Below are positions 39,846 through 56,851 of a stretch of 64,000 nt of DNA, piece by piece. How positions within the stretch are numbered: the stretch's first letter is position 1; every line of letters starts with the position of its first letter. Where the stretch lies: NCBI RefSeq assembly GCF_900169565.1, contig NZ_LT828648.1:310001-374000 (forward strand), read 5' to 3'. The notes beneath the pieces were generated by a model. That model was given only the letters and a program-made list of their open reading frames with translations. It was not told the DNA's origin and ran no database searches. The translations under genes and the position numbers were made by a program. The DNA comes from Nitrospira japonica (GTDB lineage Bacteria; Nitrospirota; Nitrospiria; Nitrospirales; Nitrospiraceae).

Positions 39846-41501
39846 CTACGGCACGACGAGACCGTCGGCGACTCCTTTGGGCCCTCTGATAGAGACAAGG
39901 AAAATGTAGTTGGCGAATGACTCCGTGTCTCCAAAACAGCCATCAACCCAGAATCTCACGTTAAAATAGGGCCAGTTGGTTCCGAGCTTCTTCTCTTGAA
40001 AATATGCTCCTCCTCTCTTGAAAAAGGTAGGAGTGAGAAACACCTCATCGAGAACCCAGTCATTCGCCAACCTCGCGTTTGTGAAAAATTCATCGTTCCC
40101 CTTATAACCGATGAAGGGATTGGGGTTCCCGTGCCCTATTTGCTGATGGCCGAGATTGCTATTTCCGCCGACAATCTTGAAATCTTTTCCCGGCTGCCCG
40201 ATGCGCCTGTCTGCGGTATAGATAATTGTCCTGAAATCCACGGTCGGTTCAAAGTGAAACGGCGTGAGGGAAGATTTTCCTTTGTCCGGATTTCTTACCA
40301 CGTACACGAAGCCGTTGTAGGCTCGCAAACCATCCTCCTGTGGCACATGCACCAGTATTTGATTGTCGTACCACCAAACTTGACCTGTATAGGTGACGTC
40401 TTTGTTTGGACCAAGGATGAAATGGACCTCTCCTTGATTAGTACCAAATCCGCTGCCGTTGACGATCACCTGATCTCCAGGTTGACCAAGTCCACCCACG
40501 CTCAATGAGGTGATGGTGGGATTCTGCATCACCTGCTGAGGCGGAGGGCCTGATCCTGCCGCTCCCAGAGCCTGCTGCGAACTCACGGGCTCTTCCATTG
40601 CGGCCATGGTCGGAGGCCGAACCCCGCCGGGAGCTTGCATAAGCGGCGCACCTGGTTGTTTCAGCGCGCGCGTGCCGATTTCGTCGGTCGGCTCAGCAGG
40701 AATGTCGGGACTGTCGCCTTCAACTCCCCGAGGCCGGATCTGTCCACCTTGGCGACTCTGCAGTTGATTGAGCACAGGTTGAATCTGCGCAATCAAGGCG
40801 GCCCGACGACCCGCCTGCTGCTGGAGGAACTGGGATTTGTGTTGTTGGAATGCCTGCTCGAATTGAGCGGACCCCTGCGCTGCCATCTGTTGCTCTTGTG
40901 CTTGCTGCTGCGCAGCTTGCTGTTGCACGGCCCGTTGCTGAGCGGTCATCGCTGACTGGACTTGTGATGGATTCGGTAACGGATACTGCACGTTCACCGT
41001 CCCTGCAGCCCGGCCTCCCTGCTGTGGCGGCATGGGCTGAGCCAAGCGAATCTGCACCATCCAGAGAACACTACGCTGCACATCCTGCGGCGTGACGTTG
41101 TAGCTCATTCGCACATTGCCGGTGGCCTGCTGCGTGATCGGCTGGCCGCCGGGAGATTGCAATGTCACAAGGACCGGGGCTCCTTGACCCTGTACATCTA
41201 TGACGATTGGCCCCGGCTGAGTCACTGCGAAGCCGAAGGAGTCCGATTCGGGTCCCTGCACCTGAAAATTCTGAGGGAATGTGGGTATCTGCACATTCGA
41301 TTGTCCGGCCCCTCCCGGTTGCACTGGAACTCCCGGCTTCACCGGCTGCTGCATCTGACCGACTCCCCGGCTCTCGACGCCGCCCTCGCTCGTCGGCGAG
41401 GCATTTTCGGTCGATGAACAGGCTGTCAGCATACCGACCAGGACGAACAGTCCGCAGTTCCAACCTGTTCTCCTCAGCCCCCGACCGCATGAACGTTGCA
41501 T
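39846..41501 (-). CDS. VESRG-family lipoprotein with IPT/TIG domain (paralogue 1)
   Basis: A 551-residue lipoprotein: lipobox LTAC with Cys28, then 15 residues later V-ESRG (43-46). Next is a beta-rich module shared with three neighbours (FAVTQPGPIVIDVQGQGAPV, then VRMSYNVTPQDVQRSVLWMV). Residues 185-240 are extremely Gln-rich (QQRAVQQQAAQQQAQEQQMA). A second SRG-like site is not obvious here. Around residue 330 an IPT/TIG fold begins (ITSLSVGGLGQPGDQVIVNG, then SGFG). The last 150 residues match the C-terminal domain of the two larger paralogues (DEFFTNARLANDWVLDEVFL; FLVSIRGPKGVADGLVV). I know no named function. It is the last gene of the cluster and convergent with the second caspase gene. 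Confidence 0.72.
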   Translation of the reverse strand: MQRSCGRGLRRTGWNCGLFVLVGMLTACSSTENASPTSEGGVESRGVGQMQQPVKPGVPVQPGGAGQSNVQIPTFPQNFQVQGPESDSFGFAVTQPGPIVIDVQGQGAPVLVTLQSPGGQPITQQATGNVRMSYNVTPQDVQRSVLWMVQIRLAQPMPPQQGGRAAGTVNVQYPLPNPSQVQSAMTAQQRAVQQQAAQQQAQEQQMAAQGSAQFEQAFQQHKSQFLQQQAGRRAALIAQIQPVLNQLQSRQGGQIRPRGVEGDSPDIPAEPTDEIGTRALKQPGAPLMQAPGGVRPPTMAAMEEPVSSQQALGAAGSGPPPQQVMQNPTITSLSVGGLGQPGDQVIVNGSGFGTNQGEVHFILGPNKDVTYTGQVWWYDNQILVHVPQEDGLRAYNGFVYVVRNPDKGKSSLTPFHFEPTVDFRTIIYTADRRIGQPGKDFKIVGGNSNLGHQQIGHGNPNPFIGYKGNDEFFTNARLANDWVLDEVFLTPTFFKRGGAYFQEKKLGTNWPYFNVRFWVDGCFGDTESFANYIFLVSIRGPKGVADGLVVP

Positions 41502-41575
41502 CAGGTTTCTCCTCTCATTGGAACGCTCCTCACATCACCCCTCTCGATCCATTCCTGCAGCGCCGCCCTCTTGCG

Positions 41576-41875
41576 TCATCGCGTCGGAGGAATAGGCTTC
41601 ATGCCCGGCGCCACCATGTCCTTCTGTTGGACAGATGGATGTTTCTGTTGAGTCGCGTCCATCCGTTTCTGCGCAGGATCGAACTTTTGCTGCGTGGCAT
41701 CCGGTTTCATCCGGTCTCCGGACTGGCGCATGCCTTCCGGCGGCATCGGCGACGGGGACGACGAGGCCAACACTGTCGGTACGTCGACACCGACCGATGC
41801 ACCCAACAGGGCGAGTGCCGCCGCCATTGCCAGCCTATTCGCACGTCCAGCATCGTTGTCGTTGGATTGTCCCAC
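41576..41875 (-). CDS. small exported protein with TQQK-type repeats
   Basis: A 99-residue protein. The ribosome site AAGGAGG touches the ATG at 41881 (one base apart), which is too close; the in-frame GTG two codons on has seven bases spacing and is the better start. A signal peptide (MAAALALLGASVGVDVPTVLA) is followed by a short, disordered, charged region with imperfect repeats (DATQQKFDPAQKRMDATQQK). No family recognised. It lies between the YkgJ-like gene (23 bases) and paralogue 1 (74 bases). Confidence 0.5.
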   Translation of the reverse strand: MGQSNDNDAGRANRLAMAAALALLGASVGVDVPTVLASSSPSPMPPEGMRQSGDRMKPDATQQKFDPAQKRMDATQQKHPSVQQKDMVAPGMKPIPPTR

Positions 41876-41898
41876 GGGCATCCCTCCTTGATGGATGG

Positions 41899-42600
41899 TT
41901 ATAGTTTGTCCAGCCGCTCCGTCACGGCCCTGATATGGAGAGGCATCCTCTCCGTTACGTCGTCGGGCACGGTCATTCCTCGTTCAAGGCAATACTGCGT
42001 CAGGACGGAATCCATGTCCGTCCAATCCCGCAGGATCGCGTCATGCCGTTGATCGACGCCTTCGGTCGCCTGCTTCACCTCGGCCAGCAGGTCGTGGTCA
42101 TTCGCCGCCACGCTGTGCAGTTTGACGGCCATGCTCCCGACCAACTCGACGTAACGATCGACGGCCTCGATGAACGGCTGCGCGCCTTGCGTCGTCAGGA
42201 AATCTTGAACCGTTCCTCCACGACCGTACTCTCCCTCGGTCCGTGGATGGGGCGTGAGTTCATGGAACGTTTCTTCGCCTTCGGCCGTTACGCGGCGCCC
42301 CAACGGATAGAGCCGGCAGACCAATGGGCGATCCTCATGCACGCCGCACCCCTGCCTGCTCAAGAATACACAGGCGCCCTCTTCAACGCGCCGGAGAGAT
42401 GTTCCGTTGGACTCCGTATAGCGCGAGAGAAATTCCGTCGTCGTGATCCCGCGATTCATGGCAAGCCGGTCCACTTCATACGGATTGAGACGAATGACCT
42501 TGTCGTGGCAACACCGGCTGCATGCGTGACAGGCATACGAAAAGGCGCTGTCGCGCCGATAGACGGAATTCACCGGCCTGACGACGACACCATCCTTCAT
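41899..42600 (-). CDS. YkgJ-type cysteine-cluster protein
   Basis: A 233-residue protein of the YkgJ/UPF0153 family, cytoplasmic, with a cysteine set thought to bind a metal or Fe-S cluster: CHACSRCCHDK near the start, then ACVFLSRQGCGVHEDRPLVC and RLYPLG. The ATG at 42600 is used; a TTG 19 codons earlier extends the frame. After the cluster the chain is helical (FIEAVDRYVELVGSMAVKLH). Members of this family are proposed to aid metal or redox chemistry of other proteins; the exact reaction is unknown. Its place inside a cluster of exported proteins suggests help with their maturation, which is inference. Confidence 0.75.
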   Translation of the reverse strand: MKDGVVVRPVNSVYRRDSAFSYACHACSRCCHDKVIRLNPYEVDRLAMNRGITTTEFLSRYTESNGTSLRRVEEGACVFLSRQGCGVHEDRPLVCRLYPLGRRVTAEGEETFHELTPHPRTEGEYGRGGTVQDFLTTQGAQPFIEAVDRYVELVGSMAVKLHSVAANDHDLLAEVKQATEGVDQRHDAILRDWTDMDSVLTQYCLERGMTVPDDVTERMPLHIRAVTERLDKL

Positions 42601-42732
42601 GGCATCCACGGCTTTCTCATCCTGCCCTTTCACGGTCGGTCGCTTCGTCTGCCACAAGCGTTCAACGCTGCCTCGTTCGAACTGCGTGTATCATGACGGT
42701 CCGTCCGTTTCGCACGACCGGGCAGGTCCGCA

Positions 42733-44043
42733 CTAGTACGGATTGGGCTCGATCGGATATCCGTTAAGGATCGCCCCCTTCATGGGCTGCTCGCGATCCG
42801 TGGCGACAAAGCCCACACGGTTGACACGCCCGTCGTCGTACTCGAGCACGAGCGTCCAGTGCTCGAACCTGTAGTGCCCTTGTCCCGGCAGCACGCGCGC
42901 CTCATGCGCTTCCTTGCTTTCACCTTCCCGGTCGGGCGACACAATCCACATCAGTTTGTCGTCATGAAATGTCCCGTCTCTTGAGAATGACAATCCCTTC
43001 AAGGTTCCGAGGCCGCTGGCATTGCCTGGCGCGGGCCAATGGTCCTTGCGTCGCACCTCGCTGTCGAGCCGCACGCCGTCAAGGCTGGGTCGAGGAATAA
43101 ACCGTTCGCCTGTCCGCTCCTTTCCTCCTTCAATGTAGCGATGTTCAAGGACGCCGTCTTGCAGCACGGCATACAGGCGTTCTTCCTTTCCCCTGGTAAC
43201 GATCACTTGCTTATCGCGTGCCGTATAGGCACCCCATCGCTCGGGCCAACGTGCCCGATAGGCAGTTCGATCAAAACCCAGAAGTCCCTCGCCCGGCATG
43301 CCCCATAGGGCTGTGCCATCGGCAAACAGAATCAGCTCCGACACCACCGGTTTGTTCGCCAGGCCGGTCGTCCCATAGCGCAGTTCATGCGTCGTCGCCG
43401 TCCACACACCGGTAAGGCGGCCGGGGCCGGATGTACCGAGCGGACTCGGTCGGCCGAACACCGGCGCCTTCTCTCGCATCCGGGCTGCTTGAGTCTTGGC
43501 CGGCTCTCTCGGACGCACCGAATTGAGCACGGCATCGATGCTCTTCTGATGTCGTTCGAGCGCGCTCGGCGTTCCAACCGTCAGAAATCCCTCCGCTCGG
43601 CCGGCAAGTTCCACGACGCTGAGCAGGAGAAGGTACGGCGTCCCTGCCTCCTGAATGATTGCGGAATCAACCGTCCACTGGCGTCCCAAGTCGTCCTTGT
43701 CTTGTTGGGTGGGATTCGCCTGCAGGACCTGACGGCTACTCAGGGCGGAAGCCCACAGCTGCCGATGAGCATCGGCGCGCGTCAGTGTCTCGCCGAGCTG
43801 CAGGCCGGTTCCAACCGGTGCGATACCCAATTCATTGGCTCCTCCCGACGGGTAGAGCATCCACCGTTCCCCATCGACTTGCGACGACCAGCCGGCAGGC
43901 ACTTGAAGGCTGTAACGAGGCAAGTCCAATTGTTCTTGCGCGGCAACGAGTGTTGTTGCACAGCCAAACAGGAAAAGTACCGTGGCTATCATGGCCACGG
44001 TAATGGCTCGTACATTCAACAGACGCACCATGCTAGACATCAT
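42733..44043 (-). CDS. exported protein of unknown function, coupled to paralogue 2
   Basis: A 436-residue protein. An N-terminal hydrophobic run (VAMIATVLFLFGCATTLVAA) contains a lipobox-like LFGC; either lipidation or cleavage at VAA is possible. The mature part has two beta-rich halves: residues 40-170 (LDLPRYSLQVPAGWSSQVDG and on; PSALERHQKSIDAVLNSVRP), resembling a periplasmic domain seen with peptidase-like proteins, and residues 200-436 (LTGVWTATTHELRYGTTGLA, SELILFADGTALWGMP), a lipocalin-like repeat of strands. Its start codon overlaps the stop of paralogue 2 by four bases (ATGA), so both are made together. Not recognised further. Confidence 0.65.
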   Translation of the reverse strand: MMSSMVRLLNVRAITVAMIATVLFLFGCATTLVAAQEQLDLPRYSLQVPAGWSSQVDGERWMLYPSGGANELGIAPVGTGLQLGETLTRADAHRQLWASALSSRQVLQANPTQQDKDDLGRQWTVDSAIIQEAGTPYLLLLSVVELAGRAEGFLTVGTPSALERHQKSIDAVLNSVRPREPAKTQAARMREKAPVFGRPSPLGTSGPGRLTGVWTATTHELRYGTTGLANKPVVSELILFADGTALWGMPGEGLLGFDRTAYRARWPERWGAYTARDKQVIVTRGKEERLYAVLQDGVLEHRYIEGGKERTGERFIPRPSLDGVRLDSEVRRKDHWPAPGNASGLGTLKGLSFSRDGTFHDDKLMWIVSPDREGESKEAHEARVLPGQGHYRFEHWTLVLEYDDGRVNRVGFVATDREQPMKGAILNGYPIEPNPY

Positions 44044-44831
44044 AGGTCCACTTCTCTAGGCGCGAAAATTCGCTCCTCGGCATCACCGCTCTCGATGGTC
44101 CTAGATTTGACTTGTCCTTGGAGGCGAGCGCGCGCAGCCTGCATCTGAGGCAGGGATTGCAGCCCGGCTGCAATGGCTGCACGGCGAGCCGTCTGCTCTT
44201 GTTTAAACTTTGCCAATTCTGCTTGGAATGATGCATCCGTCGCGGCCTTTGCCCGAGCAGCTGATTGCGGATCTAGCGGAGGGTGCGGGGTATTCTGTGC
44301 CTGTATCTGCGAGCGCAGGGTGTTCATGTCCGCTGGTGGGCTTTGGACGGCGATTGTGCCGGCAGCTTGTGCCGACGGTCCTCCAGGCTGAGCGAGCGCG
44401 ATCCCTACCTTCCAAATGGCACTGCGTTGGACATCTGCCGGCGTGACCTGATGGGTGAGCCGAATCGAACCGCTGCCTAACTGCTGTTGAACGGATTGAG
44501 GGCCGGCGCCAACTAGCGCAACGACCACCGGCGCGCCCTGACTTTGAACGTCTACTGTCACGGGTCCTGGCTGGGTCACACCAAAGGCGACACCATGCGG
44601 TTCACGATTGTTGACATCCCACTTCTGCGGCCAGCTTGGCAGTTGAAACTTTTGTGGCGTCGGCGCGCCGGGTGCCGCAGCCATTCCGGGCTTTATCGGA
44701 CGCGGCATTTGCGGCGCGCCCCGGCTTTCTACGCCGGCGGAGCTCGGACCGATGACCGGCTCGTTTCCTGTGCATCCCGCTACAAGCATCGCAGCAATGA
44801 CCCACCACCCTCGATGCGATTTCGGTTTCAT
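44040..44831 (-). CDS. VESRG-family lipoprotein, short form (paralogue 2)
   Basis: A 263-residue lipoprotein: lipobox LVAGC with Cys20 and V-ESRG at 35-38, again 15 residues after the lipid Cys. It has the full shared N-terminal module (FGVTQPGPVTVDVQSQGAPV, then IRLTHQVTPADVQRSAIWKV) and the Gln/Ala-rich linker (FQAELAKFKQEQTARRAAIA), then ends shortly after a second motif, QVKSRTIESG. It therefore lacks the IPT/TIG and C-terminal domains of paralogues 1, 3 and 5. It shows no frameshift, so this looks like a natural short member, coupled to the 436-residue protein that follows. Confidence 0.7.
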   Translation of the reverse strand: MKPKSHRGWWVIAAMLVAGCTGNEPVIGPSSAGVESRGAPQMPRPIKPGMAAAPGAPTPQKFQLPSWPQKWDVNNREPHGVAFGVTQPGPVTVDVQSQGAPVVVALVGAGPQSVQQQLGSGSIRLTHQVTPADVQRSAIWKVGIALAQPGGPSAQAAGTIAVQSPPADMNTLRSQIQAQNTPHPPLDPQSAARAKAATDASFQAELAKFKQEQTARRAAIAAGLQSLPQMQAARARLQGQVKSRTIESGDAEERIFAPREVDL

Positions 44832-44890
44832 ATTTTCTCCCAGTGAACGATATGCTTCTATCTATTTGGGTGGATCGCGACGGCCGAGGG

Positions 44891-46492
44891 TCATGGGGCG
44901 CTGCAGGCGGCCACTGTATGACACAGGACTCCGTCCGGCACATTTTCAGGGCCCCGGATGACAAAGAGATACGTGTAAGACATCCCGGGAATAAACGCAT
45001 CGAACCACCACCGGACCTGAAGCTTCAAGGTCTGATCGGATTGGGCGACATAGGCGCCCGTCCCAAAGGGGATTCCGTAAACTGTGTTGGTGGGTTGACA
45101 AGAGCGTAGATCGTAGGGGATGACTTCCACGCAGCTGACGCGCCAGCCGTTCTGAAGTGCGGTGTTTTCGAAGAACCAATCGCGTCCGTCCTTTCCAAAG
45201 AAGATATCACCGGGAGCGAAAATGGAAGCGGCGACCCTGTTATGATGAATGTCATTACCGATTACGGATGCTTCAGTCATCGCCCCTCCCGTCGCTTGAG
45301 AATAGGTCTGGGTACTCGCAAGACGCCGGTCAAACGGCGAGACCATCGTGAGTACCCTGCTCTGTTGTCGAGGCACGAACAGAAATGGGGCCGCGTTGCT
45401 GAACTGTGGTCCTCCTGGGTCGCCCTCGACCGCGACAACCAAGCTCGCGTTGAAATGCGTGACGCCGGTAAGCTCCGGAACGGTAACCTCGATGAGCGTG
45501 TCGGTCCACGTGGGGCCGGCCGGCCCCATCACCACCCTCGCATCATGCTGCACGAGGCCTGTCGTCCCCGTCATGTAGACATGCCCCGCCGTAGTGGTGA
45601 AACCACTTCCATGGACAACGACCCTTGCGCCCGGCTGGCCGTTCGTCACGCTGAGACTGTCAATATGCGGAGGCGGTGGAGGTGTAAATTCGGGTCTCTG
45701 CGCGCGAGCGCCTGGCGGCAGCTTAGGCGCGATCCTCGCGGAGTCAGAAGGTGGCGGAACGGCCCTGCTTTGGACTTGGGCTTGGAAGCCCTTCTGCTTG
45801 AGGAACGTGTCGGCTTTAAGTGCCGCTTCTTTGAGGTGTTCTTGGTAGTGCCGGGCATCTTCATTCTTGTTGATCTGCAATAACGCTTGCATGTGGGTCT
45901 GGAGTTGAGCCGGGTTGAGCTGGGTCTGCTGCTGCACCTGTGCAACCCGCGCACGCACCGCCGCCTCTGCTTGCGTCTCGTTTGCCGGCGGATACTGCAC
46001 TGACACTTGACCGGTCGCTTGACCTTTTGTGTTGGGAAGAAGTCCGAGATTGACCACCCACAGGACTCCTGCCTGGACATCTTGCGGCGTCACTTGATAC
46101 GCCAAACGGACCTGCCCCTGACCACGTTGCACGATGGGTTGTGCGTTCGGCCCACGCAGCACAGCTTCCAACGGAGGGCCCTGCCATTGCACATCGACGA
46201 CGAGCGGTCCGGGCTGCGTGACCGGGAACCCAAGCGACGCCTGCCTGCGATCTTCGATCTCAAACTTTTGCGGCCATGTCGGCAATTGGAACTTTTGCTG
46301 CGCCGGCGCACCGGGCGCCATCGACATCCCGGGTTGCCCCGGGCGCTCAAGCTTCGGCATGCCACGGCTCTCGACCTCGTCCGGCTTTTCCTCATCGGCA
46401 AATACACACGCAGGCCCGACGAGTCCCGCGACGAGACACGCGAGAAGAGCCCCGTTATACGAAACACGCCCCCATAGGCTTTGCTGATCCAT
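44891..46492 (-). CDS. VESRG-family exported protein with IPT/TIG domain (paralogue 3)
   Basis: A 533-residue exported protein; GGAGGG before the ATG at 46492 sets the start. The signal peptide ends near VGPACVFA, then EEKPDEVESRG places ESRG at 41-44. The shared module follows (FPVTQPGPLVVDVQWQGPPL, then VRLAYQVTPQDVQAGVLWVV). A Gln-rich helix (NPAQLQTHMQALLQINKNED) leads to QVQSRAVPPP, a possible second Arg site. Next come a Pro-rich stretch, an IPT/TIG domain (IDSLSVTNGQPGARVVVHGS), and the C-terminal domain (DWFFENTALQNGWRVSCVEV; SYTYLFVIRGPENVPDGVL). It is about as similar to paralogue 5 as recent duplicates are. Confidence 0.72.
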   Translation of the reverse strand: MDQQSLWGRVSYNGALLACLVAGLVGPACVFADEEKPDEVESRGMPKLERPGQPGMSMAPGAPAQQKFQLPTWPQKFEIEDRRQASLGFPVTQPGPLVVDVQWQGPPLEAVLRGPNAQPIVQRGQGQVRLAYQVTPQDVQAGVLWVVNLGLLPNTKGQATGQVSVQYPPANETQAEAAVRARVAQVQQQTQLNPAQLQTHMQALLQINKNEDARHYQEHLKEAALKADTFLKQKGFQAQVQSRAVPPPSDSARIAPKLPPGARAQRPEFTPPPPPHIDSLSVTNGQPGARVVVHGSGFTTTAGHVYMTGTTGLVQHDARVVMGPAGPTWTDTLIEVTVPELTGVTHFNASLVVAVEGDPGGPQFSNAAPFLFVPRQQSRVLTMVSPFDRRLASTQTYSQATGGAMTEASVIGNDIHHNRVAASIFAPGDIFFGKDGRDWFFENTALQNGWRVSCVEVIPYDLRSCQPTNTVYGIPFGTGAYVAQSDQTLKLQVRWWFDAFIPGMSYTYLFVIRGPENVPDGVLCHTVAACSAP

Positions 46493-46567
46493 GATGCCCT
46501 CCGTGGTGAGAACCCGCTTCATTGGTTGTTTGCCAGATCGATGCTCTCCGTGTCGCCGGACGCGGCT

Positions 46568-48601
46568 TCATGATTTCCCGATGCATCCGACCCCCACCGC
46601 ACGAAGCTCAACTCCGACCTTGGTCGAATAACGTCCGGTCGCCAGATGGTCATAGGGTCCCTGTGCGTGGGGCATGGTGCCGAATCGGCAGATCGCCGCG
46701 CCGGGATTCGACTGTTTGAAGTTGTCGTAGGTTTCGAAATCGATGCGAGCGGGTTGCGCCATGTGGCAGAGCCGGCAATACTTCCCCACGAAATCACGAT
46801 AGAGATCCTCGTGCCCTCGCCAGCCTGCGGGAACATAATGGGCGGCTGCCGCATTCGCCATCCCGTTCGGCGCCCGATGCATACCGTCGATCATCCGCGC
46901 GATCGGACGGCTTGGATTGTCCTTGCTGGGACTCGTTTCAGCCACCAGGAGATTGAGGTCTCGAAATGCCACTTCCTGATCCTGCCTGCGAAATCCTGGG
47001 TTTTCGGAATAGAGAAAATTATACGGGTCGAACGGCAGGAACGAGGCTCCGCGAACCGTGTGGGTCGCATCATCATAGGCGCCGCCGTGACAGGCAAGGC
47101 ACATGTGGGGCACAAACTTCGGCCCTTCGCGGTCCAACGCCACATTGGGGATGAGCCGGCCGTCTTGATCGTAGACGTAGAACGTCACCTGCCGCTGGAC
47201 CCTGATCGATACCACAAAAGATCCGGCTCCGTTTCCCGGCCTGTCGTCATTGATGCGCAGATACAAACGCCCCCTGGCGGCACGAACTGTAGTGGTATTG
47301 CGATCACCGATGAAGAAATAGGACGGACGAGGTTTGCACGGAGGAGATTGCCCGTATTCGTCATAGGTTTTGATGCAGTCGACGTCCGAATACGCTCCGA
47401 CATCGTTTGGCTGACCAATACGTCCGACCAGACCGAATGGGGAGGCGTTACCGATGGGGAGTTTGGGGTTGTCCGGTCTCGGTCCCCACCCGGAGGGACC
47501 ATTGTTGCCGGTCAGACATTCACCGCCCCAGATGGATCCTGTCGCCGAAAATTCAATCACATCTCCCGGCATGACATCGATGCCCGTATCCACGTCCTGC
47601 CGGATAGGAGGGCCATCGCTATGACTTCCAAGACAGACTTCTGGATTGGATTGAGTAAACAACCCGTCACGTTCCCGTACCACCACCGTCTTGGACGCAG
47701 GCACGGGGTGATATTCCATCGCTACGGTTGCCAATGGCTTCGACGGTGCCGGTGTTGATCCGGTCCCGGTCGAAGGGCGAACGTTTGCCGATCCGCGTGG
47801 CGCATTCAAGGCACTGCTCGATGGTTGCTGGAGCGAACCGGGTGGGATGAGACCTCCGGCGGCTTGAACCGCTTCCGTCAGCGCAGCATGAGGGTCCGGA
47901 TAGGCCGGATTGGCTGCTCCGTTGAGGAATGCCGGTGGCCCATAGTTGGAAACATAACAGGCGATTCCACCGGCGTTTCGTCGGCAGTGCATATCGCGGC
48001 CGATCCGCAGGTCGATGTTATTGAAGTACGTGGCCCGGACTTCCCCCTGACCGACCGCAAAGCCGTTGCGGGCCTTGAATTGGTTCAGCGAGTCGGTGAA
48101 TTGTTTGACGCATGAAAGCCATTGGTCGCTGCACTTGGCCAGCCCGAGTGTGCGAAAGAACTCGAACGATTCATCGAGCGCCCCGAGCCCGCGTCGGCTG
48201 AGCCAGCATTGTGCCCGTCCCTCGCAGGGAATCGGCATGGTAAACCGCTCCGACAACAGTTCCGGAACGACGAGGACCGGAGCAACGGCAAGCGGCGGCG
48301 GTGGGGTCGGTGCGATCGGCTTGAGCTGCGGAGCCGATTGAGGATTTGAAGGAAGCGGAGCGAACTTATCCCTGGGCGGAAGAATCGGACGATCCGGATT
48401 CGGGATGCCACGTGATTCGACGTCCCTATCTGCGGAAGTGGTTTCATCAGCATTCGGCGGGAACGCGACGTCCGCAATGCCCTGCTGATTGACGCGGGCG
48501 TCCGGCATCTCCTTCCGATCGCTCGCGGTACAGGCGATCGAGAGGCAGCCGATCAAGAGAAGAATGATGTCCGGAGGATGTCCGTGGACTCGATTCTTCA
48601 T
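46568..48601 (-). CDS. VESRG-bearing lipoprotein with LecA-like domain and di-haem cytochrome c
   Basis: A 677-residue lipoprotein; the ATG at 48601 has GAGGAGGG upstream. The lipobox is LSIAC (Cys24) and V-ESRG is at 62-65. After a Pro-rich stretch comes a Cys-containing helical region (CEGRAQCWLSRRGLGALDES), then, from about residue 320, a domain like the LecA/PA-IL lectin fold (PGDVIEFSATGSIWGGEC; GRLYLRINDDRPGNGAGSF). The C-terminal part is a cytochrome with CLACH at 501-505 and CRLCH at 609-613. It could move electrons at the outer surface or test for sugars. The fusion is unusual; the lectin-like assignment is by pattern only. Confidence 0.7.
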   Translation of the reverse strand: MKNRVHGHPPDIILLLIGCLSIACTASDRKEMPDARVNQQGIADVAFPPNADETTSADRDVESRGIPNPDRPILPPRDKFAPLPSNPQSAPQLKPIAPTPPPPLAVAPVLVVPELLSERFTMPIPCEGRAQCWLSRRGLGALDESFEFFRTLGLAKCSDQWLSCVKQFTDSLNQFKARNGFAVGQGEVRATYFNNIDLRIGRDMHCRRNAGGIACYVSNYGPPAFLNGAANPAYPDPHAALTEAVQAAGGLIPPGSLQQPSSSALNAPRGSANVRPSTGTGSTPAPSKPLATVAMEYHPVPASKTVVVRERDGLFTQSNPEVCLGSHSDGPPIRQDVDTGIDVMPGDVIEFSATGSIWGGECLTGNNGPSGWGPRPDNPKLPIGNASPFGLVGRIGQPNDVGAYSDVDCIKTYDEYGQSPPCKPRPSYFFIGDRNTTTVRAARGRLYLRINDDRPGNGAGSFVVSIRVQRQVTFYVYDQDGRLIPNVALDREGPKFVPHMCLACHGGAYDDATHTVRGASFLPFDPYNFLYSENPGFRRQDQEVAFRDLNLLVAETSPSKDNPSRPIARMIDGMHRAPNGMANAAAAHYVPAGWRGHEDLYRDFVGKYCRLCHMAQPARIDFETYDNFKQSNPGAAICRFGTMPHAQGPYDHLATGRYSTKVGVELRAVGVGCIGKS

Positions 48602-48635
48602 AGGTCGCGAGCCCTCCTCTCGATGCGTCTCGACG

Positions 48636-50192
48636 TCAAGGCACGAGAATCCCGTCCGGCGTCCCGGCCGGACCACTGATCGTCACGGCATAGGTGTATG
48701 TCATCTCTGGTATGAAGGGCTCGAGCCACCAGTGGACGGCAAATTGTGGACTTGAGGTCCCAAGACCTGCGACCACATATGCACCGGATCCTGGCGGAAC
48801 CCCGTACGCCACTGTTGTTGTTGGGCCGGACGTGGGACCGCACGTCCGAGGATCGTACGGTAAGACTTCCACGCAGTCGAATTTCCAGCCGTTCTTCAGT
48901 GTCGTGTTCTCAAAGAACCAATCGTTACCTTTCTTGCCGACGAAAGGAAGAAACATGCCCCATACCGGAATGAGTGTGCCCAGCTTCGTGTGGTGAACGA
49001 TATTGTCCTTCACAAATGAAATTGCACTGCCGCCGACGTCGTCGATGCGATGATCCCCGGTGACAAGGGTGATGACCCTGGCTTCCTGACGGGGGATATA
49101 CTGGAAGGGGACGGAGTTGCTTCGGTATTCAGGCCCCGGTGACGAAGGATCCACTCCAATCGATACGAAGAAGTTCGCCATGAAGGGAAGGACTCCGGCG
49201 ATCTCCGGCACCGTGACCGCAATGAAGCCATCGGACCATATGGGCTGCGCCGGGGCTCCGACGACCTTTGCAAACAGCTCTCGTGTGGGAGCGGTCATGT
49301 GGACAAAACGGGGAACATTTCCAAATCCACTTCCCTCGATGATGACAGTACTGCCCGGCGGGCCTTGCGTCACGCTGAGCTTGTCGATATGAGGACCAGA
49401 AGGGATCGCACTCATTTGAGGTGTCTTTTTTCCTTCATACAAGACCCCGGGTTGACCGAATCCTCTGCTCTGGATCTTTCCTCCTGACTGCGCTTGCTTG
49501 AGAAATGCGTCGAGTTGAACTCCTGTCACTCTAATGACGTCTTGGTACTGGCGGTCCAGCTCGCTTTGACGAGCCGCAAACAGAGCCTGCCGTCTTGCTT
49601 GAACCTGTGCGTCGTTGAGTTGGGTACGTTGCTTCGCCTCTTCAACCCTCGTGCGAACCGCCGATTCTGCCTGAGCCTCATGCACCGCGGGGTATTGAAT
49701 CATCACCTGACCTGTCGCCTTGCCTTGTGTGTTGGGAGCGAGAGATATCCGCACGACCCACAAGATCCCGCGCTGCACATCTTGTGGCGTGACTTGATAA
49801 CTCAGGCGAATGTTGCCTTGGCCCCGCTGGACAATCGGTTGCGTGTTCGAGCCTCGCAGAGTGATATCCAGTGGCGGCCCTTGGAACTGCACGTTGACGA
49901 CGACCGGACCCGGCTGCGTGACTGCGAATCCGAACGAGGCCAGCTGCCTGTTCTCGATGTCAAATTGTTGAGGCCAAGTCGGGAATTGAAACGGTTGCTG
50001 CGCGGCTGAACCGGGCGATATGGACATTCCCGGCTGCACTGGACGCTCGATTCTCGGCATGCCTCGGCTCTCGACCTCGTCCGGCTTTTCCTCATCGGCA
50101 AATACACAGGCAGGTCCGGCGAGTCCCGTTACGAGACATGCGAGAAGAGCCCCTCCATACGAAACTCGCCCCCATACGCCTTGGTGATTCAT
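48636..50192 (-). CDS. VESRG-family exported protein with IPT/TIG domain (paralogue 5)
   Basis: A 518-residue exported protein; AGGAGG before the ATG at 50192 sets the start. It has almost the same signal peptide and DEEKPDEVESRGMP segment as paralogue 3, then the shared module (FAVTQPGPVVVNVQFQGPPL, then IRLSYQVTPQDVQRGILWVV), a Gln-rich helix (QRTQLNDAQVQARRQALFAA), a second SRG site (KIQSRGFGQPGV), an IPT/TIG domain (IDKLSVTQGPPGSTVIIEGS) and the C-terminal domain (DWFFENTTLKNGWKFDCVEV; TYTYAVTISGPAGTPDGILV). It is the closest relative of paralogue 3, and the cytochrome gene lies between the two. Confidence 0.72.
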   Translation of the reverse strand: MNHQGVWGRVSYGGALLACLVTGLAGPACVFADEEKPDEVESRGMPRIERPVQPGMSISPGSAAQQPFQFPTWPQQFDIENRQLASFGFAVTQPGPVVVNVQFQGPPLDITLRGSNTQPIVQRGQGNIRLSYQVTPQDVQRGILWVVRISLAPNTQGKATGQVMIQYPAVHEAQAESAVRTRVEEAKQRTQLNDAQVQARRQALFAARQSELDRQYQDVIRVTGVQLDAFLKQAQSGGKIQSRGFGQPGVLYEGKKTPQMSAIPSGPHIDKLSVTQGPPGSTVIIEGSGFGNVPRFVHMTAPTRELFAKVVGAPAQPIWSDGFIAVTVPEIAGVLPFMANFFVSIGVDPSSPGPEYRSNSVPFQYIPRQEARVITLVTGDHRIDDVGGSAISFVKDNIVHHTKLGTLIPVWGMFLPFVGKKGNDWFFENTTLKNGWKFDCVEVLPYDPRTCGPTSGPTTTVAYGVPPGSGAYVVAGLGTSSPQFAVHWWLEPFIPEMTYTYAVTISGPAGTPDGILVP

Positions 50193-50318
50193 GGTGTCCT
50201 CCTGGTGAGCACCACGTCTGATCGGTTGCGCGTCAAACCATTGACGGCACCGCAACGCCATCCGCGGTCTTGGCCGAATGATTGATCGTCACGGCATACA
50301 GATGCCTCAGCCCGCCGC

Positions 50319-51281
50319 TTAGGGAGCAAGCGTGAGATTCCATGTGCAGTCGACGGTTCCTCTCGGCATCATGTTCTGATACGCCGGCATCATGTTCGGA
50401 ACATTTCTGTTCTGGACGGCATCGATCGGAAAGACCTTCGACTCCTTGGTCGTCAGCGTTCCGTTCGAATCCATGATCGGCATGCCCGATATCTGTCCGA
50501 AGGGTTGGTAGCCGAATGCATTGGACATTTTTTGAACCTGGACGGGCGGGGGCACAGGGCTTCCGGCGATCACATGTTGCTGTGTTTCGCGGATACCACC
50601 CGGGAACGCCGTCGGAAGCATGTTGACGATCCAATTGCCGCCGGCACTGTTGAGCGCGGTGAGTTGCGGTTCGCCCGTCATGACCGTGGGAATGCTGCTG
50701 GCTCTGCTCCCGGCAATAGTCCAGGTCCAATGATCGCTCGTCCCCACGCCGTTGTCGTCGCCTCGATCGCCTGATCCACTGGTCGCCCATTGGACCGCAT
50801 AGGACCTTCTCGTCGCACTCTGTCCTGGAATCGGCATCGAAGTGACGATCCACAGTTGGACCTCGAAGTGACGATATGATCCTCTGGCACCCGGCTGCCC
50901 GACCGGCGGTCCATATTGTCCCTGGACGTCGACGACGCATCGCCCGCCGTTGGCCGGAACCGGCGGAATCGTCGGAGGCGCGGTTGGATTCGCCAATTCC
51001 CTTCGTACGTCTTTCAATTGGTTGATCCGATTTCGACAATTGATATCCGCGCTCGACAGACAGGGGTCGGAAGGCAACACGCGTCGGCTGGCGACCTCGC
51101 CTCCATCTCCAACGGAAGCGGAGCCTTCGTCCGGCGATGCGGCCGGGACTGGCGCAACGGGCGGCGTCGGCTGAGCAACCCGTTTGTCCGATGAATTGTC
51201 GGTCGTTGAACAGGCGGCAATCAGCAGTCCCAACAGTACCGTCCCGATCATCGGTTCAATTGGCCGTCCAACCTGCCGCAT
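50319..51281 (-). CDS. divergent lipoprotein related to the VESRG cluster
   Basis: A 320-residue lipoprotein; GGGAGA ahead of the ATG at 51281 sets the start and the 27-codon extension is rejected. The signal ends in LIAAC. Instead of VESRG it has V-ASRR about 45 residues after the lipid Cys. A Cys-bearing helical segment (DPCLSSADINCRNRINQLKD) is followed by a beta-rich domain (GGRCVVDVQGQYGPPVGQPG, with the same VDVQGQ-type strand as the shared module, then HFEVQLWIVTSMPIPGQSA). The C-terminus is unrecognised (GTVDCTWNLTLAP). I consider it a remote or degenerate relative; the link is weaker than for the other paralogues. Confidence 0.6.
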   Translation of the reverse strand: MRQVGRPIEPMIGTVLLGLLIAACSTTDNSSDKRVAQPTPPVAPVPAASPDEGSASVGDGGEVASRRVLPSDPCLSSADINCRNRINQLKDVRRELANPTAPPTIPPVPANGGRCVVDVQGQYGPPVGQPGARGSYRHFEVQLWIVTSMPIPGQSATRRSYAVQWATSGSGDRGDDNGVGTSDHWTWTIAGSRASSIPTVMTGEPQLTALNSAGGNWIVNMLPTAFPGGIRETQQHVIAGSPVPPPVQVQKMSNAFGYQPFGQISGMPIMDSNGTLTTKESKVFPIDAVQNRNVPNMMPAYQNMMPRGTVDCTWNLTLAP

Positions 51282-51934: not shown

Positions 51935-52660
51935 CTATTTGATCCAGACCGTTCCGGGCATCCCGGGCATTTTGTTATTGGGATCGAACTTATCGTACGT
52001 CAGGTATCGCCTGGGAACGACGAAGAGCTCTTCCGACAGCACCTCGTTTCGGATGTCGGTCACGTCCATGCGCGCTTGAGCCTTGCCATTGTTCATTCTG
52101 ATCACGACCAGCGGAAAGATCTTTTGGTCTCGGAGGGCTCGCACCCATTCAGGGGAATCTCCTGCTCGGCCGAATCCGGAAGCGCGCGTATGTAACCCGA
52201 TAAAGACCCCCAACCCGGTCGTTCCCCAGATCTCGGTCTCCTCTTCCTGACCCGTATGGATAAATTGGTCGGTGTGATAGCCGAGGATCGTCCGGGTTTT
52301 CCCGGTTTTCACGAGGCTCCCGACGGGTCGGACGGAGGCCAGCCGCGAGGCTTCTTCCATGTTCATCACCATGGCCAGCCTCCAGCTCAGCAGAAGCATG
52401 GACACCTTGCGCGCATCCAAGTCCATGATCACTGCCGCTCGACCATGCCTCGAGCGGTTGGTCTCCATTCGAGCCTTGTTTCCTTTGGAATAGTAGTCGA
52501 ACTCCGATTCCTCCCCCCAATAATTGCTCTTGAAATGCACCACCCCTTCAAACGAGGCTGCAAACGCGGGCGAGAACGACATCGCGATGACGATACCGGA
52601 CGGGATCATCATCACCATGAGCGCCGGCAGGAGCGTTCGCCGACCCGCTGTCCATTTCAT
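51935..52660 (-). CDS. exported DUF4412-like protein
   Basis: A 241-residue protein; AGAGGGA upstream favours the ATG at 52660 over the one 13 codons earlier. A signal peptide (LLPALMVMMIPSGIVIAMSF, then cleavage near AFA) is followed by FEGVVHFKSNYWGEESEFDY, YYSKGNKARMETN, VIMDLDARKVSMLLLSWRLA and ILGYHTDQFI, the DUF4412 pattern of a small beta-barrel, as in the protein at 29723-30520 but without the Met/Pro tail. It lies 54 bases downstream of the WD40-caspase gene and is probably cotranscribed. Confidence 0.7.
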   Translation of the reverse strand: MKWTAGRRTLLPALMVMMIPSGIVIAMSFSPAFAASFEGVVHFKSNYWGEESEFDYYSKGNKARMETNRSRHGRAAVIMDLDARKVSMLLLSWRLAMVMNMEEASRLASVRPVGSLVKTGKTRTILGYHTDQFIHTGQEEETEIWGTTGLGVFIGLHTRASGFGRAGDSPEWVRALRDQKIFPLVVIRMNNGKAQARMDVTDIRNEVLSEELFVVPRRYLTYDKFDPNNKMPGMPGTVWIK

Positions 52661-52714
52661 CTCGAGTTCCCTCTGTTGAGTCGACCGTTTCTTCTCCACG
52701 GTTCAACCACAGTT

Positions 52715-55700
52715 TCAATACACCGCGAAGTCGTATTCCAGGTTCTCCCGCCTGGCGGTCGGATTCTGGCCGCCCTCCGTCAGCTTGCGCACTTGCTCGA
52801 TGACATAGCCTTGCAATTCGCTCACGGTGACGGTCCGGTCCTTATTGGTGTCGGCGACCTGGTTCTTGAGCCCGTTCAACAAGGCATAGGTGAAGACGCC
52901 GTTCTTCCACTGTTCTCCTTCCAGGCTGTATTCGTTTCCGCTCGAACTGGAAATGACCGCCGCGCCGGTACCCCGCCTGAGGTCCGCAAACCAGTCCTGC
53001 TGGAACTTCACCATATCGGTGGAAAGCCGCGGCTCAGCCGGCGTGTTTGCCTGGCCATCACCCGCGTCCGCCACCAAGGTGACGCCCCTGGCCGCCTTGA
53101 ACGACCGCATCTTGACCGTCCCCGAGCCGCCCGCGTCGGCTTTGGCCACAACCACCGGCTGATCCTTTTCGATTTCTCCCGAGAAACAGGTATCGAGCAG
53201 GAGCATCTTCTGCAGCGCGGGAATCCCATCGAGCAGGCGTTCAAATTCCTCATAGGGCAGTCCGTTCACGGCCGGATGTTTGGGATCGATGTCGTGCGTG
53301 CCGAAATAATAGTTCGACTGCTCATCAGTCATTCCATGCCCCGCGGCGAAGACGATCACCAGATCGTTGGCCTTGGAGCGCTTGAGCCAATCCTTTGCTT
53401 TCCGAATTTCCGGTCTGGTCGCCTTCTCATTCGTCAGATCCAACAGATGGACGTTTCCCTTCACCCCTGAACGCGCTTCGACCGACTTGTACAAGGCCAG
53501 CAGGTCGTTCGCGTCCTTGGCCGCGTAGCGCAGATTGTAGGCGCGGTTCTTGTACTCGCTGACGCCGATACCCACGAGATAGATGTCCGGGGGAGCCATC
53601 TCGGCCGTGGACGTCGTATAGAGCGTTTCCCTCAGAGACTCGGTCCCTTGCTGATTCAAGACGGAAACCTGGATCTTATTGCGTCCCGCCACGAGAGGAA
53701 CCTGGATCTCCTGTTCATAGCTCCGTGCCGTCCGGTCGGCAATCATCAAGCCGGACGTGCCGTATACCGGCACGTCGTTGACGTACACCTGAAGCCGATC
53801 GAGGGCATACTTCGTGTCCATGGCTTTCACACGGAGCGGCAAGGTCGCTCGGTCGATCGAAACAGGGACCTCTCCTCCCTGGATGTGAAGTTCCGGAAGA
53901 TGAAAATCGATGCCGAGCATCTGGTCATTGAGGCCCATTTTTCTGAGCCGTTTCTCATAGGCGAGCCGGTAACTCTTGACGAGATCCGGGGATGCCATGC
54001 CCAGACGCTCCAACACGATGTCGGGCCGGTTGAATCGCAAGTCGAACTGTTCGAAAGGATACAGCTGATCGTTGACACGGAAGGCGACGCCCTTGATGCG
54101 GCTCTTGGACGCTCGATAATACTGATCCGGCGTGACGGCGACGAAATCCTCATGGCCGAGCGCGATGAGCGAGGCCACCTCCTTCCCCGAACGCAGGCTC
54201 CAAAGCCGAATGGCCCCGTCGCCGCCGGCGCTCACAATGAAACGGCCGTCGGGGCTGAACACGAGGGAGCTGATTGCGCCCGTGTGTCCCACCAATTGAA
54301 GAACGTCCTGACCTGTCGCCACGTTCCACACCTTGATGATCTGGCCGTGGCCTCTCGCGGCAATCCGGCCGTCCGGGCTGAACGCCGCTCCCCTTCCTCC
54401 GATGTTCATTTCCAGGTTCTCGACGACGCTCATCGGATCGAACTGAGCGCCCCGCATCTGTCGTTTCGGCACGTGCACTTTCTTTCCCGTCACGACGTCC
54501 CAGACCGTCTTACCGCGGACGCCGTCGGTGGCGAGGAATTTCCCGTCCGGGCTGAACGCCAGGCTCGTCGCGCCGTGAGTCCCGTCTTCGAACGCCTCGA
54601 ATAACTCCGAGGGATCGTCCAACGTCCTGATCTCGCCCTGCGGCATGGACATGGATCGGGAAGGCGCACCCAGGCCGAAGGGCAACAGCGACTTGAGACT
54701 GCCGGCTTCCTCGATCATCCGCTGGTACTCCTCCTCGCGTTGCCGCTGCTGCATCGCTCTGGCTTGCATGGGGCTGACATCCCGGAACTCAAGGACCAGT
54801 TTGCCGGTCTGTACATCCCAGAGACTCGTGCTTTCGGACCGTCCGATCGCGATCAGTTTGCCACCCGGATGGACGTCGAGAGCCCGGATCCATTGAGCGG
54901 ACTCCTTCATCCGTTCCAGGGTCTGGCGATCGATGGAAGGTTGTTTCGGAGCCTGGGCGTCCATCATGGCGCGGGTCTTGGGATCCAGGCCTTCATACGC
55001 TGCCGATTGATTCTCCAGATGGGCGATCCCCTTGACCGATTTATTCGGCAAGATAATCCTACTGAGTTCCATCCCGTTGGAGACGTCCGCGACTATCACC
55101 TGATTGCCTCGACCAATAATAGCCGTCCGATCGTCGCGTGTAAGACGGAGATACACCGGCGTGAACTGATCCGGCGGGAGCGGCCGAGTCAGCGCTTTCA
55201 ATTGCTTGCCCGTGGCAAGATCCCAGAGCCAAGCCGAACCGTTTATACAACCGGTGGCCAACAGCGTCCCGGCGCGGCTGACGGCAACGGAAGACACGGC
55301 CATCCCGTCGGGGCAGTCGAAGGTGCGGACCAGTTGCCCCGTGGGAAGATTCCAGAGCTTGGCGCTTCCGCCGTGCATGCCCGCCACGATGGATTGTCCG
55401 TCCGCCGTCAGGGCTAGGTCGGACACTTCGCTGGCGCCGCCGGCCAATCGCGTCTCCTTCCCGCTCGCCGCGTCCTGCAGATAGGGCGCGCCTCCGTTTG
55501 CTGCGCCGATCACCCACGTCGCGCCGTCGGGGCTGAAGTTCAGCGACGTGGCGTCGAATTCGCGCACTTTCTTCCCGGATGGGAACTCGAACAACGTGGC
55601 CGCGCCGTCACCCTTTCCGATCGCGAGAAGCGTTCCATCGGGGTTGAACGTGAGAGAATGGGTCATCCCCATGCCCTTCATGCCCGTTTCTCCCAAACGT

Positions 55701-56851
55701 ATGGCCACGACGGGCTTGCCGGTTTCCAGATCCAGTACGCGAAGTGATCGTTCGACAGGCTGCTCCATGGCAAAATACCGTCCGTCGGGGCTCAGAGTCC
55801 CGCCCAGCCCATCGGATGCCGGCGCATAGGGCCACGTATGCCGTTGCGTCTTGGCCGGCACCTCCCAGACCAGCAACTCTTGCTTGACGGCCGGGATGGA
55901 TGGTTCGTTGCTGAACAGGCCACCCAACCCGATCATCGACCCGAGAGACGAGCCGATGGTTCCGATCACCCCCGTGGAGGAATGGCCTGTGTCGGTCCGG
56001 ACGGTGACCAGGGTCCTGCCGTCTCTGCTGAATGCGAGCGGCTGCTGCATGGCTGAATCGGGAATCGTCCATACCGTTCGGCCGGTGCCGAGATCGATGA
56101 TCGACAATGACCGGTTTCCGCCGAACAACGGACTGTCGCTTGATTTCGGATCGGCCGCTTCGCCGACCGCCGCGAAGCGACCATTCGCGCTGACGGCTCC
56201 TCGGCCGTCCAAGCCGGCTCCTCCCGCGCGAACTTCCCGCCCTGACGCCACGTCAAAGACTTTGACCGCTCCGGTCATCTCATGGGTCACCACCTGGGTA
56301 CTGTCTTCGCTGAACGTCACGAAGTCGGCTCCCTGACCGAACCCGCCGAAGCCTGAAAAATTCCTGACTTCCTGCCCGCTCGCCACGTCCCAGATCTTGA
56401 CCGTCCCGTCCTGACTGCCGCTCGAAGCGAGATAGCGCCCGTTGGGGCTGACCGCCACCGCGTGAATCGCTCCCGCATGGCCGGTCTGAAACACTACCTG
56501 GACGCCATCGGTACTGACCGGCGCGTGCCGGACCGGCGCCTGCCCCATCATCTGACCCATCATCTTCTGCATATCGGCTTCGCTCGGAGGCTGGAAATCA
56601 CCCCTGCTCGGTCCGCCTCGCCCATAGGAAGGGGCCATGGCGCAGCCGGCAAAACTGAGCAGCAGAAAAACGATCATGATCATGCGGCCGATCCGAACCG
56701 CACGTAGCGGCAACCCTGATCGGGATGTGGACCGGGATGTGACCGGCACGACCGTCTCCGGCTCACTGCCTGAACGGCTCATCCATCGGCTATTGTAGGA
56801 ATCGACTTGAAGAAAAGGAGGGCTGACGAAGGCGTGATCGCAGCGCCGCAT
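52715..56851 (-). CDS. WD40-repeat caspase-family (C14) peptidase lipoprotein
   Basis: A giant 1378-residue protein. The start at 56851 has AAGGTG four bases ahead; ATG codons at residues 24 and 57 are alternatives, since the hydrophobic signal (MIMIVFLLLSFAGC) begins at 57. Cys71 is the likely lipid anchor. Residues 115-925 hold WD40 beta-propeller repeats, with clear units such as IHAVAVSPNGRYLASSGSQD, VKIWDVASGQEV and ISSLVFSPDGRFIVSAGGDG. A linker (residues 930-1080) leads to a caspase domain with His1172 in FAAGHG and Cys1222 in LDTCFSG. ADTNKDRTVTVSELQGYV near the C-terminus is an EF-hand-like loop. The propellers may bind target proteins. Confidence 0.85.
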   Translation of the reverse strand: MRRCDHAFVSPPFLQVDSYNSRWMSRSGSEPETVVPVTSRSTSRSGLPLRAVRIGRMIMIVFLLLSFAGCAMAPSYGRGGPSRGDFQPPSEADMQKMMGQMMGQAPVRHAPVSTDGVQVVFQTGHAGAIHAVAVSPNGRYLASSGSQDGTVKIWDVASGQEVRNFSGFGGFGQGADFVTFSEDSTQVVTHEMTGAVKVFDVASGREVRAGGAGLDGRGAVSANGRFAAVGEAADPKSSDSPLFGGNRSLSIIDLGTGRTVWTIPDSAMQQPLAFSRDGRTLVTVRTDTGHSSTGVIGTIGSSLGSMIGLGGLFSNEPSIPAVKQELLVWEVPAKTQRHTWPYAPASDGLGGTLSPDGRYFAMEQPVERSLRVLDLETGKPVVAIRLGETGMKGMGMTHSLTFNPDGTLLAIGKGDGAATLFEFPSGKKVREFDATSLNFSPDGATWVIGAANGGAPYLQDAASGKETRLAGGASEVSDLALTADGQSIVAGMHGGSAKLWNLPTGQLVRTFDCPDGMAVSSVAVSRAGTLLATGCINGSAWLWDLATGKQLKALTRPLPPDQFTPVYLRLTRDDRTAIIGRGNQVIVADVSNGMELSRIILPNKSVKGIAHLENQSAAYEGLDPKTRAMMDAQAPKQPSIDRQTLERMKESAQWIRALDVHPGGKLIAIGRSESTSLWDVQTGKLVLEFRDVSPMQARAMQQRQREEEYQRMIEEAGSLKSLLPFGLGAPSRSMSMPQGEIRTLDDPSELFEAFEDGTHGATSLAFSPDGKFLATDGVRGKTVWDVVTGKKVHVPKRQMRGAQFDPMSVVENLEMNIGGRGAAFSPDGRIAARGHGQIIKVWNVATGQDVLQLVGHTGAISSLVFSPDGRFIVSAGGDGAIRLWSLRSGKEVASLIALGHEDFVAVTPDQYYRASKSRIKGVAFRVNDQLYPFEQFDLRFNRPDIVLERLGMASPDLVKSYRLAYEKRLRKMGLNDQMLGIDFHLPELHIQGGEVPVSIDRATLPLRVKAMDTKYALDRLQVYVNDVPVYGTSGLMIADRTARSYEQEIQVPLVAGRNKIQVSVLNQQGTESLRETLYTTSTAEMAPPDIYLVGIGVSEYKNRAYNLRYAAKDANDLLALYKSVEARSGVKGNVHLLDLTNEKATRPEIRKAKDWLKRSKANDLVIVFAAGHGMTDEQSNYYFGTHDIDPKHPAVNGLPYEEFERLLDGIPALQKMLLLDTCFSGEIEKDQPVVVAKADAGGSGTVKMRSFKAARGVTLVADAGDGQANTPAEPRLSTDMVKFQQDWFADLRRGTGAAVISSSSGNEYSLEGEQWKNGVFTYALLNGLKNQVADTNKDRTVTVSELQGYVIEQVRKLTEGGQNPTARRENLEYDFAVY

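Follow-up and report, generated by a model that had tools for sequence, protein, structure and literature searches.

A Portable Arginine Motif of Exported Proteins in Nitrospira japonica and Its Linkage to Exported C14 Caspase Homologues

The window analyzed here is a stretch of 64,000 nucleotides from the genome of Nitrospira japonica (4.08 Mb, single contig; NZ_LT828648.1, positions 310,001 to 374,000), and the coordinates of its genes are counted from its first letter. It contains one co-directional minus-strand gene run, from I (52715-56851) through A (39846-41501), and directly past A, on the plus strand, the caspase genes C1 and C2. Five proteins of the run, A to E, were found to be exported and to carry the motif VESRG, hereafter the tag, soon after the export signal, as a first-pass annotation of the sequence had claimed. 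I, C1 and C2 are exported homologues of caspases (family C14). The sequence evidence leans towards a reading in which the secreted proteins are matured by cleavage after the Arg of the tag, carried out by exported caspase homologues. The tagged proteins and the proteases are as follows.

A, 39846-41501, minus strand: exported lipoprotein with VESRG (Arg45), predicted PPC-like module, Gln-rich helix, TIG and C-terminal domain; inner Arg sites at Arg258 (QIRPRG) and Arg278 (EIGTRAL)
B, 44040-44831, minus strand: exported lipoprotein with VESRG, module and helix only
C, 44891-46492, minus strand: exported protein with VESRG, module, helix, TIG and C-terminal domain
D, 46568-48601, minus strand: exported lipoprotein with VESRG (Arg89 in the numbering of the long open reading frame) and two CxxCH motifs, without the module
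E, 48636-50192, minus strand: exported protein with VESRG, module, helix, TIG and C-terminal domain
I, 52715-56851, minus strand: lipoprotein with WD40 repeats and a C14 caspase domain; His of AGHG and Cys of DTCFSG intact
C1, 36234-38207, plus strand: exported C14 caspase with DUF4384; AGHG and DSCYGG intact
C2, 38285-39817, plus strand: lipoprotein C14 caspase; SGHG and DSCFSG intact

The VESRG Tag Is a Portable Linker Motif

The consensus of the tag is [VI][EG][ST]R[GA], usually preceded by Gly, Asp or Glu. In 14 homologues of the module proteins, Arg45 and Arg258 (numbering of A) are invariant, each being the sole invariant residue of its own linker, and most of these homologues also have the third Arg site, EGEIGTRAL. 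All three sites fall in predicted disorder. Because the tag lies in predicted disorder and is also found without the module, VESRG is a separate, portable linker motif and not part of the module fold.

The frequency of the tag in the genome was determined by a pattern search combined with fetched stretches. The genome contains 55 matches to the codon pattern for VE(S/T)RG, and five of these sites lie within 9 kb at the cluster. Among the 30 sites that were examined, in-frame N-terminal tags on clearly exported proteins were those of A to E only. On these genome-wide counts, the five-fold occurrence of VESRG is not due to chance.

Just after the signal peptide, the tag was also found in seven or more exported families of related loci that are otherwise unrelated, namely D, the CDC family (PF01289), u733/u542, p278, HELTH, an InlB-repeat family and u311. 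For an enrichment count, only exported proteins were considered, the module family was left out, and the tag had to lie at most 110 residues from the signal peptide; exported status was assigned by a simple hydrophobicity score rather than by a trained predictor. Of 72 exported proteins in the cluster loci, 10 carried the tag, as compared to none of 125 in the control loci (Fisher p = 2.8e-5), and shuffled sequences gave an expectation of 0.8 tags versus 11 observed. The Ser of the tag is encoded by AGC in some families and by TCN in others; the tag was therefore not recently copied between families. Signal peptides and flanking residues differ among the tagged families as well.

The CDC-family carrier is a thiol-activated-cytolysin-family protein from the Nitrospira-like genome G058 (L024:16504-19182; PF01289, E = 9e-26) with the tag EGEVGTRG near its N-terminus. 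It has a C-terminal domain in common with D (27% identity over 147 aa), while the tagged N-termini of the two proteins differ. Judged by this alignment, they are not wholly unrelated. A homologue of D in a genome without the module (L125) has kept EVESRG and adjoins an orthologue of I. The distant D homologues L126 to L128 are without the tag and without C14 genes nearby, and C14 genes were absent from all five control loci around D relatives that lack the motif.

At the DNA level, the tag pattern was too degenerate for single matches in 236 genomes of the order to be informative. An excess over the reversed control was seen in G162 (12 vs. 3), G166 (8 vs. 1), G168 (6 vs. 2) and G058 (10 vs. 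5), all of which are genomes that contain the module.

Arg Sites Occur at a Pro/Mature Junction and at Leader Ends

A papain-family zymogen from genome G168 (L028:3404-4612) contains QIRPRG followed by GEVGSRA, i.e., a two-site linker as in A, with 38% identity over 47 ungapped residues. The linker ends about 25-30 residues before the catalytic QCGSCW, at the pro/mature junction. A second papain-like protein, encoded next to a module gene, has AELTTR|S at the pro/mature position.

In addition, an exported leader domain of about 100 aa, belonging to a family that we find undescribed, was observed in 36 of the 236 genomes of the order, attached to a wide variety of passengers (e.g., L149:1236-1577, L182, L185, L187, L189, L190, L191, L193 and L194). 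There are up to 14 copies per genome and arrays of up to six genes per fetched stretch, and the family is present in all eight genomes bearing I and in all seven module genomes. Its passengers include lipases, proteins with an endonuclease/phosphatase fold, beta-helices and PAN domains. The leader domain ends with SG[VI]x[SP]R[GA], and the Arg is retained in 63 of 65 sequences. Since two leader proteins also carry EEIESRG or EGEVTTRA slightly downstream of the leader end, the leader-end form and the tag form appear interchangeable.

Exported C14 Caspases Accompany the Tagged Proteins

Three of the 13 C14 domains of the genome are encoded in the window. I, C1 and C2 match PF00656 with 45.1, 74.0 and 71.1 bits, respectively (cut-off 21.4), and possess the catalytic AGHG or SGHG as well as D(S/T)C(F/Y)(S/G)G. 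The signal sequences of I and C2 are lipobox-like, and C1 has a signal peptide; the enzymes and their proposed substrates should therefore share a compartment. A defence-system scan with PADLOC returned "caspase" matches for I, C1 and C2, one weak repeat match for I, and no match for any other gene of the cluster.

The expectation of the first-pass annotation that the module would recur in clusters with caspase-family or YkgJ-like genes in related bacteria was met in related Nitrospirota. C14 genes were present in or beside 8 of 8 module loci, the random chance of a C14 gene in one 20-kb stretch being about 6%. Of the protease classes sought in the loci (C14, CHAT and papain), only C14 was present in or beside every module locus. 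Orthologues of I were found in eight and the module in seven of the 236 genomes of the order, with five genomes having both (p = 2e-7, without regard to phylogeny). A fragment of I remains in G168 (L028:19410-19619), and G058 has, between I and D, a 96-residue duplicate of the end of I (L022:9887-10177; 87% identical). Several leader arrays also have C14 genes beside them; in G205, G207 and G211 the encoded C14 proteins are about 1180 residues long, and the G207 protein, the one that was scanned, is also a WD40 protein.

Non-animal C14 proteases are known to cleave after Arg or Lys (PMC5756287; PMC6426788). The Asp of the SDA motif of C1 aligns with an Asp of the paracaspase MALT1, and the Asp that precedes the catalytic Cys is conserved. 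By sequence, the acidic residues of the C14 proteins are predicted to fit Arg/Lys specificity.

The loop after the catalytic Cys is the region of caspase self-processing. All orthologues of I have (A/T)RG(V/I) in this loop, as part of a conserved FKA(A/T)RG(V/I), and the loops of two further clustered caspases contain GTRALP and QTRALP. By analogy, an Arg-Gly site in this loop suggests self-processing, which has been reported for the orthocaspase MaOC1 (PMC5756287). C14 proteins with DSCHSG (L046:8023-10302, L133:9256-11511, L135:8187-10472 and L138:57-2003) have VGTRG(I/V) or a similar sequence towards the C-terminus, possibly their own processing sites.

The Module Family and Its Predicted Folds

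As the first-pass annotation had proposed, four proteins share a module (A, B, C and E), and three of them (A, C and E) add a TIG domain and a C-terminal domain common to all three. By alignment, A, B, C and E are true paralogues: C and E share 51% identity across 550 aa, A and E 33% (E = 1e-69), and A and B 40% (E = 8e-45). D has no more in common with the module proteins than the tag and a few residues directly following. The TIG matches (PF01833) of A, C and E scored 20.1, 18.4 and 15.1 bits, all under the gathering score of 20.9 (Pfam E from 7e-4 to 0.02).

The module was not found elsewhere in the genome of the window. It is present in seven of the 236 genomes of the order, plus one marginal match, and a scan of about 85,000 species genomes yielded three loci, all from Nitrospirota (Nitrospira and other Nitrospirota metagenome-assembled genomes) and none outside this phylum. 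In G058, a protein of 1110 residues comprises two modules with a two-site linker of the A type between them.

An AlphaFold model of A was built on the 14 homologues (mean pLDDT 69.8). It predicts disorder for residues 1-73, a beta domain (74-172), a long helix (178-250), disorder again (251-321), TIG (329-417) and a beta-rich C-terminal domain (421-551). The pLDDT is below 50 for residues 1-73 and 251-321, while most of the remainder is folded. The module model resembles Tk-SP (3afg; Z of 11.6, rmsd 1.9, 95 aligned residues) at 16% identity, i.e., in fold only, and p24 GOLD domains at a Z of about 11. Thus, the module is predicted to be a PPC-like jelly roll. Residues 325-420 of A match the corresponding CGTase domain, a TIG fold (Z about 13.4, rmsd 1.7-1.8). 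The C-terminal domain alone gave weak fold matches, among the best of them H-type lectins at Z 5.0-5.8 (discoidin I, SLL-2 and Helix agglutinin).

Neither the module nor the C-terminal domain is covered by a Pfam family, the PPC family PF04151 did not match the module among Pfam matches up to E = 1, and a sequence search of the PDB with the module gave nothing meaningful. The view that no described family has this architecture holds for sequence families beyond TIG, but not for the predicted fold of the module, which has a precedent in PPC-like jelly rolls. These jelly rolls (Tk-SP 3afg; ColG 1nqj) are like the predicted fold of the module, which differs in its position near the N-terminus, the missing Pfam PPC match and the low identity. 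The top Foldseek match of the whole A model was 7k44, with low TM-scores (0.14/0.21) and an rmsd of 16.7. The likeness to Bacteroides SGBP-type surface glycan-binding lipoproteins (7k44), which are exported and have Ig/TIG-like domains followed by a beta-rich C-terminal domain, is consequently one of architecture only.

Other Genes of the Cluster

The coordinates and start sites of the cluster genes agree with the sequence. The genes are co-directional, as had been noted, and their common strand is the minus strand; the plus-strand reading of the same intervals is full of stops. Besides the tagged proteins and I, the run includes the following genes.

A2, 41576-41881, minus strand: small exported Pro-rich protein, recurring beside YkgJ and module genes in related loci
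A3, 41899-42657, minus strand: YkgJ-like CxxCxxCC protein (PF03692)
Y, 42733-44043, minus strand: exported protein without Pfam family, kept in the sister cluster (72% in G058)
F, 50319-51281, minus strand: exported protein with no more than a loose EVASRR, left out of the family
H, 51935-52699, minus strand: exported DUF4412 protein (PF14371), between F/G and caspase I

F is the sixth gene that had been regarded as a possible remote relative of the family; it showed no BLAST similarity to D or to the other proteins of the cluster, and this assignment was dropped. Just upstream of I, 57076-57930 encodes an exported protein with a sub-threshold match to PF16785 (small metal-binding protein). 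A promoter/terminator scan of the cluster was uninformative.

Genes for VgrG-like hub proteins of contractile injection systems adjoin several clusters and leader arrays in other genomes (L026:245-2149, L028:9267-11195, L027:18489-20000, L189:3773-5455 and L187:17530-19155; PF05954 and PF04717 in L026 and L028). The leader proteins L030:1145-2098 and L191:15928-16602 contain the passenger stretches FGDGATGLRPPS and ATDADLNEQE, which we take to recall contractile-tail baseplate proteins. PF05954 was not found in the genome of the window, and a general role in phage or contractile injection was ruled out on this ground.

Proposed Mechanism and Alternatives

VESRG is a candidate cleavage site because its Arg is invariant, its linker is predicted to be disordered, it recurs in unrelated families and at the pro/mature junction of a papain zymogen, and it is linked to C14 genes. 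From this we infer the following course. The genes would encode Sec-exported proteins, several of them lipoproteins, composed of a signal peptide, a short disordered linker with (V/I)(E/G)(S/T)R and folded domains; A and its relatives would have two further Arg sites in the disordered linker ahead of TIG. After export, an Arg-specific C14 protease of the same compartment would cut after the Arg. A cut at the tag would detach the protein from the N-terminal peptide or the lipid anchor, and cuts at the inner sites would separate the PPC-like pro-part and the coiled coil from the TIG/C-terminal part. The freed parts may act at the cell surface or outside, in adhesion, degradation or attack on other cells, to judge by the likeness of their domains.

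A C14 enzyme is suggested as the processing protease since C14 genes are linked to the loci, I co-occurs with the module, and the loop sites match. Linkage, the predicted Arg specificity and the Arg-Gly site in the loop of the WD40-caspase point to lipoprotein I of the same gene run as the most likely cutter, with C1 and C2 as alternatives. The mechanism is probable, and the association is new.

Several points weigh against this reading. The genome has 13 C14 domains, any or none of which may be the cutter, another Arg-specific protease could cut, and tagged neighbours are absent from most C14 genes outside the cluster. G162 and a second G058 locus are without an I orthologue and have other C14 and CHAT proteins there. 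Many leader arrays had no C14 gene on the fetched stretch, some of these being short contigs, and the Arg of the leader family could instead be conserved as part of the domain, so that it supports the proposal without deciding it. D and the module proteins are alike beyond the Arg (RG(M/I)P...RP), which could reflect an old shared leader segment. Finally, the module, I or D served to pick the loci, several of which are orthologous, so that the p-values overstate independence.

The best surviving alternative, itself unlikely, is that the tag is cut by another exported Arg-specific protease (clan CD C11 or C25, CHAT or trypsin-like) and that the caspases are present for another reason. Thr/Ser-Arg suits many Arg-specific proteases, two loci have CHAT genes, and the best experimental precedent is a C11 protease. 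However, neither CHAT nor papain genes matched C14 in being present at every module locus, orthologues of I track the module across genomes, and the caspases themselves hold matching Arg-Gly or Arg-Ala sites in their loops.

We consider it slightly less probable again that the tag serves in sorting or docking and is recognized without being cut, e.g., by the WD40 propellers of I or an export machine of the outer membrane. Short peptides are ligands of WD40 domains, and the position of the tag just after the signal peptide is constant. Against this, the tag is also found internally, separating folded domains, and at the pro/mature junction of a papain, and the sole invariant residue is the Arg, as a P1 residue would be.

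The tag might also be a relic of ancestry, one leader segment having been shuffled among the exported genes of the locus with no present function. The RG(M/I)P...RP stretch of D and the module proteins and the Arg retained within the homologous leader domains would fit this idea, which appears improbable because signal peptides, flanks and Ser codons differ and because the Arg is kept in 14 homologues while its surroundings diverge. Surface proteins commonly contain TIG and lectin-like or jelly-roll domains, but ordinary adhesins whose common N-terminus is a low-complexity coincidence, the outcome that the first-pass annotation had named as a refutation, are very improbable in view of the enrichment test, the shuffles and the genome-wide pattern search.

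The proposed maturation by C14 proteases has its closest known parallel in Bacteroides, where CDC-like pore-formers are cut after Thr-Arg by the surface lipoprotein fragipain, a C11 protease (PMC11169675). As in that system, putative exported precursors with an Arg site near the N-terminus occur together with predicted lipoprotein proteases (I and C2, from their lipobox-like sequences), and the tagged G058 protein is itself a member of the CDC family (PF01289). In contrast to it, the linked proteases are C14 rather than C11 enzymes, both families being of clan CD, the site is found on many unrelated proteins, and cleavage is proposed on sequence evidence. I, C1 and C2 resemble meta-, para- and orthocaspases in their C14 domain, His/Cys pair and acidic residues, and differ from them in being exported and in sitting among their putative substrates. 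The leader relatives resemble polymorphic toxin systems (PMC3482391) in that a single N-terminal domain is combined with many passengers, the junction being a conserved Arg site, whereas the C-termini of the window proteins are fixed and not polymorphic.

A wider generalization can be offered tentatively. In Nitrospirota, exported caspase homologues may read a portable code for maturation after Arg, (V/I)x(S/T/P)R|(G/A); the result would be a caspase-processed secretome whose carriers would be adhesin-like, lipase, papain, nuclease-like and CDC-family proteins as well as leader-domain proteins with many passengers.

The significance of the family thus shifts from the module to the tag, the portability of which had not been seen in the first-pass annotation. 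Bacteria, and Nitrospirota especially, are rich in caspase homologues, which are usually discussed only as cell-death proteases and for which natural targets are hardly known. In a search that covered part of the literature, no paper naming natural substrates of bacterial orthocaspases or linking orthocaspases to such proteins was found. A C14 version with a portable site common to unrelated proteins appears to be undescribed, while the related C11 case is known in Bacteroides. Within 21 kb, the cluster supplies both named proteases and precisely defined candidate sites, and the role to which it points lies in secretion and the maturation of surface proteins, not in cell death. If the proposal is true, A to E and their relatives would be the first natural substrate set for bacterial orthocaspases.

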